A stretch of DNA of 64,000 nucleotides from Sphingomonas sp. Lineage in GTDB: Bacteria; Pseudomonadota; Alphaproteobacteria; Sphingomonadales; Sphingomonadaceae. Numbering within the stretch: the first letter of the stretch is position 1; every line of letters starts with the position of its first letter. The stretch lies in assembly GCF_004799495.1 (NCBI RefSeq), contig NZ_SSMY01000010.1, forward strand, positions 62,001-126,000, read 5' to 3'. The position numbers and the translations under genes were made by a program. The notes under the pieces are model-generated. The model ran no database searches, was not told where the DNA came from, and saw only the letters and a program-made list of their open reading frames with translations. Of this stretch, positions 44,185 to 49,732 are shown piece after piece.

Positions 44185-44970
44185 ATGGCCGAGTTCCGCC
44201 TGCCCAAGAACAGCCGCATCAAGAACAATGGCAAGGTGCACAAGGCGGGCGCCGGGGCGACGAACGTCAAGCGCTTCAAGGTCTATCGCTACGACCCCGA
44301 CACCGGGGACAACCCGCGCTACGACACGTTCGAAGTCGATCTCGACAGCTGCGGCCCGATGGTGCTCGACGCGCTGATCAAGATGAAGTCGGAACAGGAT
44401 GCCTCGCTCACCTTCCGCCGCTCGTGTCGCGAAGGCATATGCGGATCATGTTCGATGAACATGGACGGAAAGAACGGCCTCGCCTGCACCACCGCGATCG
44501 AGGACTGCAAAAGCGAGGTGACGATCACCCCGTTGCCGCACATGGAAGTGATCAAGGACCTCGTCCCCGATTTCACCCATTTCTACGCGCAATATGCCTC
44601 GATCAAGCCGTGGCTGCAGACCGTCACTCCGGCGCCGGCGGGCAAGGAGCGGCTGCAATCGCCCAAGGATCGCGAAAAGCTCGACGGCCTCTACGAATGC
44701 ATCCTGTGCGCGTGCTGCTCGACCAGCTGCCCGAGCTATTGGTGGAACTCGGACAAGTTCCTCGGCCCGGCGATCCTGCTCCAGGCGTATCGCTGGCTCG
44801 CCGACAGCCGCGACGAGATGACCGGCGAGCGGCTCGACCAGCTCGAGGACCCGTTCCGGCTCTATCGCTGCCACACGATCATGAACTGCGCCAACGCCTG
44901 TCCCAAGGGCCTCAACCCCGCCAAGGCGATTGCCGAGATCAAGAAGATGGAAGCCGAGCGGGTTGTCTGA
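44185..44970 (+). CDS. sdhB: Succinate dehydrogenase iron-sulfur subunit
   Basis: [30 protein letters not shown]...[35 protein letters not shown]...[21 protein letters not shown]. Confidence 0.97.
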
Positions 44971-45439
44971 AGCGCCACCCGAATCGCCGTTTTTCTCTTA
45001 TGACGACGACCCCGAAGCCCCGGGGTGGAAGACCTGGGCGTTTCGCGACCCCACCCGCTTCAATTCGTTCCTCGAACCGCTCCAGGTCCGTCTCGAAGGC
45101 GACATAGCGCGCGTGCGGATGATGCCGCGGCACGAGCATTCGAACATGCGCGACAATGTCCATGGCGGGGCACTGCTCGGGTTCATGGACGTGTCGCTGT
45201 TCGCCGCCAGCCGCGCGTTCGGGTGCCTGCAAGCCGGCGGCGCGGTGACGCTCGACCTGTCGGCGCAATTCATCGGCGGCGGGGTGATCGGCGAACCGCT
45301 CGAGGCGCGGATCGAACTGCTGCGCGAGACCAGCCGGATGCTTTTCCTGCGCGGGCTGATCGTCCAGGAAGACACCCCGACGATCGCGAGCTTCACGGGG
45401 ACGTTGCGCAAGTCCTCGCCGCCGCCGAGCCTCAGATGA
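44963..45439 (+). CDS. PaaI-family thioesterase
   Basis: [73 protein letters not shown]. Start uncertain (TTG). Confidence 0.85.
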
Positions 45440-45445
45440 TATGCC

Positions 45446-45549
45446 GTTCCCCGGCGCAGGCCGGGGCCCAACCCATACGAAATCGCGCGCGGCAGCGCGC
45501 TCCCGCGCGCGAGATTCACAGGACTGGACCCCGGCCTGCGCCGGGGAAC
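45446..45549. repeat. Nuclease-less inverted repeat pair of the same family as the 49.36-49.73 kb unit (family A)
   Basis: gttccccggcgcaggccggggccca ... actggaccccggcctgcgccggggaac, with an internal gcgcgcg hairpin. Confidence 0.85.
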
Positions 45550-45554
45550 GCAGA

Positions 45555-46667
45555 GTGACGAGCGCCCTTCAGCGATACAATGCGCTGGTCACAGCGGGCG
45601 AGCTTCGCGCCGATCCCGACCAGGCCGCCGCCGCCGCGCGGCTCGACCGGTTGCAGCGCGAGCTGGAGGCCGTCCCCAAGCGCGGATCGCTCCTGTGGCG
45701 CGCGCTCGGCAAGCGGCCCGATAGCCCGCGCGGCGTCTATCTGTGGGGCGATGTCGGGCGCGGCAAGTCGATGCTGATGGACTTGTTCTTCGAGTGTCTG
45801 ACGATCGGCCACAAGCGCCGCGTCCATTTCAGCGAATTCATGCTGGAGGTTCACCAGCGCATCGCGGAGGAGCGCAAGAAGGAAGCGGGCGACCCGATCC
45901 AGCCCGTCGCCGAAGCCTTGGCGGACGAAGCGCGCTGCCTCGCCTTCGACGAGATGATGGTGACCAACTCGCCCGACGCGATGATCCTGTCGCGGCTGTT
46001 CACCGCGCTGATCGAGGCCGGCGTGACGGTGGTGACGACGAGCAACCGTGCTCCCAGTGAGCTCTACAAGAACGGCCTCAACCGCGAACATTTCCTGCCG
46101 TTCATCGACCTGATCGAGCAGCGCCTCGACGTGCTGCCCTTGAACGGCCCGGTCGATTACCGCCGCGACCGGCTCGGCCAGCAGGAGACATGGCTCGTGC
46201 CCAATGGGCCGGAAGCGACCGCGCAACTTTCCGCCGCGTTCTTCCGCCTGACCGACTATCCCCCCGAGGATGCCGAGCACGTGCCGAGCGAGGATATCCC
46301 GGTGCAAGGCGGCCGCACGCTCCACGTCCCCAAGGCGCTGAAGGGCGTCGCGGTGTTCAGCTTCAGGCGGCTCTGCGCCGAAGCACGGGGCGCGGCGGAT
46401 TATCTCGCGATCGCACGGCGCTATCACACGGTGATCCTGGTCGGCGTGCCCAAGCTCGGCCCCGAAAACCGCAACGAGGCGGCGCGGTTCGTCGCGCTGA
46501 TCGACGCGCTCTACGAGCATAAGGTCAAGCTCCTCGCCGCCGCCGACGCCGAGCCCGCGCAGCTCTACCAAAAGGGCAACGGCGCGTTCGAGTTCGAGCG
46601 CACCGTCAGCCGGCTCGAGGAAATGCGCTCCGACGAGTATCTCGACCAAGGGCACGGCCAAGGCTAA
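45555..46667 (+). CDS. zapE: Cell division protein ZapE (AFG1-family ATPase)
   Basis: RGVYLWGDVGRGKSMLMDLFFECLTIGHKRRVHFSEFMLEVHQRI...LAFDEMMVTNSPDAMILSRLFTALIEAGVTVVTTSNRAPSELYKNGLNREHFLPFI. GTG start. Confidence 0.93.
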   Translation: MTSALQRYNALVTAGELRADPDQAAAAARLDRLQRELEAVPKRGSLLWRALGKRPDSPRGVYLWGDVGRGKSMLMDLFFECLTIGHKRRVHFSEFMLEVHQRIAEERKKEAGDPIQPVAEALADEARCLAFDEMMVTNSPDAMILSRLFTALIEAGVTVVTTSNRAPSELYKNGLNREHFLPFIDLIEQRLDVLPLNGPVDYRRDRLGQQETWLVPNGPEATAQLSAAFFRLTDYPPEDAEHVPSEDIPVQGGRTLHVPKALKGVAVFSFRRLCAEARGAADYLAIARRYHTVILVGVPKLGPENRNEAARFVALIDALYEHKVKLLAAADAEPAQLYQKGNGAFEFERTVSRLEEMRSDEYLDQGHGQG

Positions 46668-48112: not shown

Positions 48113-48144
48113 GCGTTTTTTGGTTCAGCTCGCGCTGAACATTC

Positions 48145-48222
48145 GGTGCCGGCCCGCTCCCCCACCCGGCCGCCCACACGGTATCCTGTAATGGGCGGCC
48201 GGGTGGGGAGCGGGCCGGCACC
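48145..48222. repeat. Long near-perfect inverted repeat (about 31-bp arms)
   Basis: ggtgccggcccgctcccccacccggccgccca - cacggtatcctgtaa - tgggcggccgggtggggagcgggccggcacc; one extra C in the left arm. Confidence 0.9.
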
Positions 48223-48324
48223 GCGACAACAAACAAGCTTCACTATTGCACTTGCGAATGAATTGCAGTAAGAGATGTTAACTATCGCCCTTTAGCAGTT
48301 GCGCCGCGCAGACGAACGGCCTAA

Positions 48325-49356: not shown

Positions 49357-49732
49357 GTTCCCCGGCGAAGGCCGGGGTCCAGTCGGGAGAACCGTCGAGT
49401 GGAGAAAGCCGGCTTCGTCTACATCATGGCGAGCCAGAAGAACGGCACGATCTACATCGGTGTCACGAGCGATCTGCCCAAACGGATCTGGGAGCATCGC
49501 AACGACACCGTCGAAGGGTTCACGAAGAAATACCGCTGTCATCTGCTCGTCTGGTACGAGGAGCATGACGGCATCGAGTCAGCAAGGCAGCGAGAGCTGC
49601 AAATGAAGGAGTGGAAGCGGGCCTGGAAGTTGCGGGAAATCGAAGGACTGAATCCCGATTGGGACGACCTTTACGATCGTATCGCGCTGCCTTGAGCGTT
49701 TCGTAACTGGACCCCGGCCTTCGCCGGGGAAC
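49357..49732. mobile_element. Candidate GIY-YIG nuclease unit bounded by perfect 27-bp terminal inverted repeats (family A)
   Basis: Left gttccccggcgaaggccggggtccagt (49357-49383) is the exact reverse complement of right actggaccccggccttcgccggggaac (49706-49732). Confidence 0.75.
49399..49695 (+). CDS. GIY-YIG nuclease family protein (UPF0213-like)
   Basis: GFVYIMASQKNGTIYIGVTSDLPKRIWEHRNDTVEGFTKKYRCHLLVWYEEHDGIESARQRELQMKEWKRAWKLREIEGLNPDWDDLYD; GTG start. Confidence 0.93.
   Translation: MEKAGFVYIMASQKNGTIYIGVTSDLPKRIWEHRNDTVEGFTKKYRCHLLVWYEEHDGIESARQRELQMKEWKRAWKLREIEGLNPDWDDLYDRIALP

Follow-up and report, generated by a model that had tools for sequence, protein, structure and literature searches.

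A probable nuclease-less, REPIN-like copy of a GIY-YIG-framing repeat in the gap before zapE of Sphingomonas sp.

The 104-nt hairpin-forming element that lies between the thioesterase and zapE genes is probably a nuclease-less, REPIN-like copy of a repeat family whose full unit consists of an arm, a GIY-YIG nuclease gene, and an inverted arm, and it would be mobilised in trans by that nuclease. The anatomy of the element, its membership of the family, the occurrence of further doublets in the same genome, the presence or absence of an insertion at the gap between species, and the co-diversification of arms and nuclease are directly supported. A broader proposal is that the CGTC-type REP superfamily, in proteobacteria and other phyla, has its own dedicated mobilisers, equivalent to RAYTs and invented independently, in the form of single-domain GIY-YIG nucleases, and that the zapE leader holds a passenger of this system; it is evenly balanced between true and false. 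If true, the problem solved by REPIN-RAYT pairs would have a second, unrelated solution, reached through a type of nuclease that, to our knowledge, is not known to join DNA. The features involved are given below, with positions counted along the window, i.e., the whole 64,000-nt stretch of DNA that was analysed.

44930-45439, plus strand: thioesterase gene (hotdog-fold), upstream of the element; start codon uncertain
45441-45554, plus strand: possible in-frame zapE extension of 38 codons, running through the element; most relatives that have an element at this gap show a far shorter upstream frame
45446-45470, plus strand: left REP arm, GTTCCCCGGCGCAGGCCGGGGCCCA; 8-nt-class stem, loop GCAG, CCA tail facing inward, outer tag GTT
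45471-45524, unstranded: spacer of 54 nt, self-complementary, without a nuclease ORF
45525-45549, minus strand: right REP arm, TGGACCCCGGCCTGCGCCGGGGAAC; inverted copy of the left arm over 24/25 nt
45543-45548, plus strand: GGGGAA, the sole SD-like stretch before zapE, predicted to be buried in the stem
45555-46667, plus strand: zapE (AFG1-like ATPase); GTG start backed by orthologs
49357-49383, plus strand: left arm of the GIY-YIG unit, 27 nt
49399-49695, plus strand: gene of the GIY-YIG nuclease (98 aa), the proposed cognate enzyme
49706-49732, minus strand: right arm of the GIY-YIG unit, 27 nt, perfect inverted copy of its left arm

The element occupies positions 45446-45549 and contains no nuclease ORF, in agreement with an earlier sequence-only reading, which had described it as a nuclease-less copy filling the thioesterase-zapE gap. 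The same reading had placed about 50 nt of hairpin-forming sequence between the arms; the hairpin-forming character holds, and the length is corrected to 54 nt. Its proposal of outer arms common to the element and to the GIY-YIG unit is borne out by the match between the 25-nt arms at the gap and the 27-nt arms at 49357-49732. Specifically, the arms at the gap have a stem of 7-8 bp (CCCCGGC) and a CCA tail, and both carry the loop GCAG, in contrast to GAAG in the arms of the unit. Such loop changes had been read as compensatory, which does not extend to a general pattern, as the loop bases of the left arm show no significant correlation with those of the right arm among 39 doublets (p = 0.14). 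The symmetry of the outer tags between arms, found in 37/39 doublets, was discarded as evidence because most copies had been chosen by matching tags. Chance fails to account for the four arm sites in 64 kb: the 21-mer GTTCCCCGGCGNNGGCCGGGG has four sites in the window (both arms at the gap and both arms of the unit) versus 0.18 expected, and no shuffled sequence gave four. An inverted-repeat search returns a single repeat at the gap (45445-45497/45498-45550), and the RNA of 45440-45557 has a predicted folding energy of -87.6 kcal/mol (z = -11). An Rfam scan of the element returned microRNA models only, all under their gathering scores, and this identity was dropped, considering also that such models react to any long hairpin.

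The pair recurs as an inverted doublet elsewhere in the 3.03-Mb genome, as had been anticipated. Besides the element and the nuclease unit, there are about six further doublets, roughly 63-70 nt in length and in some cases with decay of the right arm, which brings the short doublets, zapE-gap copy included, to about seven. In a search of 121 genomes, which comprised this genome plus 120 relatives, the 18-mer core is present in 59/121, with a maximum of 348 copies per genome among congeners, and the reversed control pattern is found 0 times in the 121. The copies are mostly inverted dimers and are dispersed, lying between genes at the few loci that were read. Measured from core to core, the doublets fall into classes of 63-64, 83-86, and 93-100 nt (n=40, mostly a convenience sample), and the zapE-gap copy measures 98 nt; the search for short-spacer doublets missed the high-copy genomes because the spacers there are longer. 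Many larger copies have the inner ends CCAGTTGGG ... TTCCCAACTGG in common with nuclease units of the genus, which suggests that these copies are internally deleted nuclease units. The spacer of the zapE-gap copy lacks this sign, and its comparison with the GIY-YIG unit gave no clear derivation, which weighs against the model. A 347-nt doublet in genome G058, taken up as a candidate for non-GIY cargo, turned out to be a tandem REP cluster; composite REP repeats in tandem clusters were seen in G058, G009, and G066 (L335, L336, L337).

Comparison with relatives, which had been proposed as a check, reveals both empty and filled sites. The gap is empty in the closest sampled relative, G012, whose ZapE is 88% identical, and holds doublets of the same family in G018 and G024 and doublets from other families in G001, G021, G008, and G006; about ten genomes have no element there, and in several of these the stop and start codons overlap. 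The thioesterase-zapE gap is a recurrent insertion site. Similarly, the site between mdh and sucD holds a nuclease unit in 12/29 congeners, a nuclease-less doublet in G007, and a bare 29-nt gap in G013 and G014; among the 12 is G012 (L266), whose GIY-YIG ORF appears frameshifted, possibly through a sequencing error in this draft genome. The alternation of empty and filled states at the two sites fits mobile or easily lost elements. Empty and filled sites were also compared for target-site duplication, and the exact target is not readable because the flanks are too diverged.

The 98-aa protein encoded within the unit matches the Pfam GIY-YIG family (PF01541, E = 6.9e-16), and its invariant residues Y8, Y19, R29, H33, E66, and N85 are of the catalytic type. 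Its AlphaFold model (pLDDT 93) has UPF0213 proteins and Slx1 as the nearest structures, and recognition of hairpins or cruciforms by the nuclease is plausible from this modelled likeness, because Slx1 acts on branched DNA, judging from PDB titles. The protein resembles GIY-YIG homing endonucleases and the Slx1/UPF0213 nucleases in catalytic-type residues and predicted fold, and differs from them in being single-domain, without intron or intein, and REP-framed at most loci examined. A second GIY-YIG gene of the same genome (L028, G000:C13:432204-432494) is framed by a different, 5-nt-loop CGTC REP, CCGTCATCCCGGCCTTGAGCCGGGACCCA.

The association of such genes with palindromic arms extends well beyond the window. 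Matching inverted arms frame 77.5% of 80 GIY-YIG loci obtained by a profile search over 84,980 species, compared with 0/335 displaced windows within the same 80-locus set and 0/30 zapE genes. Sphingomonadal genomes often encode several single-domain GIY-YIG homologs each, and 77% of these (n=90) have inverted palindromic arms near the ORF; the remaining 23%, approximately, have no detectable arms, which runs counter to the model. Classic CGTC/TGTC arms, e.g., CGTCATTCCCGCGNNNGCGGGAATCCAG, occur at distant loci in Nitrospira, Deltaproteobacteria, Gammaproteobacteria, and Methylotenera. Allowing for variants, CGTC-type arms also accompany 5/6 matches in a plasmid collection, in Sinorhizobium meliloti pSymB, Azospirillum lipoferum, Novosphingobium aromaticivorans, Rhizobium, and Neisseria gonorrhoeae. 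The loops of nuclease arms are GNAN or CTTGN, and paralogs within a genome may differ in their arms, as do the two of the genome analysed here and those of G033, which has three types. Moreover, with shared ancestry uncorrected in all three comparisons, nucleases that share an arm stem type group together on the nuclease tree (19 changes versus 47.9 after shuffling), core copies per congener have a median of 54 with a close nuclease homolog versus 5 without, and copies carry the same 3-nt outer tags as the nuclease arms of their own genome (permutation p = 0.0002). Two genomes run counter to the model: G054 holds 77 copies and a single weak GIY-YIG match, and in G018 the commonest copy tag is CCA versus GTT on its mdh-sucD nuclease arms. 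It also counts against the model that no DNA-joining activity is known for GIY-YIG enzymes. At L247 (Azospirillum lipoferum NC_016623.1), the GIY-YIG gene is inserted between sufB and sufC and has a complete REP doublet on either flank. The 2.17-Mb "Neisseria gonorrhoeae plasmid" record (L245, NZ_CP119140.1) looks like a mislabelled chromosome, and dRS3-like repeats flank its GIY-YIG gene.

Membership of the same family and the statistical tie to the nuclease agree with the earlier description of the element as a non-autonomous partner of the GIY-YIG unit. In the proposed mechanism, the single-domain nuclease would recognise the arms, either as extruded hairpins and cruciforms or in single-stranded form during replication, and would cut them; host repair or replication would then copy the element into another intergenic site, and nuclease-less copies would be carried in trans, as REPINs are by RAYT transposases. 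The zapE copy would have entered a junction at which the thioesterase and zapE genes formerly abutted or overlapped, and would now separate the two cistrons by a highly stable hairpin. Alternatively, the GIY-YIG gene could be a free-standing homing-type endonuclease that targets and invades REPINs, with the repeat as prey and the nuclease as parasite; the zapE copy would then be a REPIN that has escaped invasion and was moved by another agent. The GIY-YIG domain is one typical of homing enzymes (PMC1564403), the nuclease ORF stands where a doublet has its spacer, and at some loci (L247; L137, L138) it lies between two whole doublets. However, such invasion should convert many REPINs, whereas a genome has a few nuclease genes and as many as hundreds of copies, and the arms co-diversify with the nuclease, whose presence is accompanied by higher copy number, so that this origin is unlikely.

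Mobilisation by the framed nuclease recalls the REPIN/RAYT system (PMC3116915, PMC8049555), in which two inverted REPs likewise surround a variable spacer, form hairpins, and are dispersed between genes, one enzyme gene is framed by the same REPs, and enzyme-bearing genomes hold more copies. The enzyme here is a GIY-YIG nuclease, unlike the Y1 tyrosine transposase of that system, and the tags are not GTAG; the element is classed as working like a REPIN and not as a confirmed one, because the framed gene is no RAYT and the movement of the element is what we infer. The CGTC-type REPs, which include neisserial dRS3 and some rickettsial palindromes, had no dedicated transposase according to a 2013 survey (PMC3733652). 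They have a stem of 8-9 bp, a 4- or 5-nt loop, and a CCA tail and are predominantly inverted dimers (PMC3733652), features that the zapE copy fits, and the CGTC/TGTC head itself is present at many GIY-YIG loci outside the subfamily of the window. Conversely, the head of these REPs is CGTC, TGTC, or CCTC, whereas the copies in the window have GTT and lack the A-T first pair, and the element is not strictly classed as a CGTC REP because of this outer tag. As in MITEs, the short copies keep the ends of a longer enzyme-bearing unit; unlike in MITEs, no target-site duplication is seen between the diverged flanks, the enzyme is no known transposase, and the arms themselves are hairpins. Because matching palindromes frame such genes in many bacteria, the GIY-YIG nuclease is a good candidate for spreading them, and a natural candidate for the missing partner of the CGTC-type REPs. 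With a small candidate enzyme encoded between matching REP arms in sphingomonads, rhizobia, azospirilla, neisseriae, Nitrospira, and others, the question of a CGTC-REP transposase becomes directly testable. Literature searches, with preprints and most subscription journals outside their reach, found none that links GIY-YIG proteins to REPs.

At the zapE gene, the GTG at 45555 aligns with the ATG/GTG starts of zapE orthologs, as first assumed. Copies of palindromic repeats inside genes are known in rickettsiae. A comparable possibility here is that the REP is read through: ribosomes leaving the thioesterase gene would restart at ATG 45441, 1 nt past its stop codon and in frame with zapE, and produce a ZapE lengthened at its N-terminus by 38 residues that the REP encodes. 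The frame is open across the whole element (408-aa ORF), CGTC-type palindromic repeats exist in rickettsiae (PMC3733652), and re-initiating ribosomes could pass from this ATG through the element. A similarly open frame is rare among the other species that have an element at the gap; it is short in G018, G024, G001, and G021, which indicates that the extension lacks conservation and, the DNA being GC-rich, may have arisen by chance. Such read-through is improbable.

It is quite unlikely that the element acts solely at the RNA level, as a stabiliser, RNase site, translational block, or terminator retained for its effect on the thioesterase-zapE transcript, with no current link to mobility. The extreme hairpin and the recurrence of unrelated palindromic doublets in this gap among other species would suit such a role, and against it stand the absence of a hairpin at the gap in many relatives, the scattering of the family over many unrelated sites, a coding strand that lacks a terminator T-run, and the lack of a predicted promoter within the element.

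The claim that the element supplies the ribosome-binding site of zapE is very unlikely to be right: GGGGA of the right arm does lie 7 nt before the GTG (45543-45547), GGGGAA is suitably spaced and pairs modestly with the anti-SD (-5.7 kcal/mol), and a different REP arm in G008 also puts AGGAG just before zapE, but positions -14 to -4 are predicted to be 1% unpaired and the GGGGA stretch about 99% paired, the least accessible among 24 zapE orthologs, and G018 and G024 have a better SD outside the arm. The element is now part of the zapE leader insofar as it fills the gap up to the correct start codon, whereas a useful supply of a ribosome-binding site does not follow. Because the SD-like GGGGAA is inside the stem and predicted to be almost never unpaired, the element more likely hampers or uncouples zapE translation, or creates an RNA-processing site, than supplies an accessible ribosome-binding site. 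Lastly, another near-perfect long hairpin, with nested perfect arms of 19 and 17 bp, is found upstream of mdh at 48144-48223, outside the CCCCGGC family.
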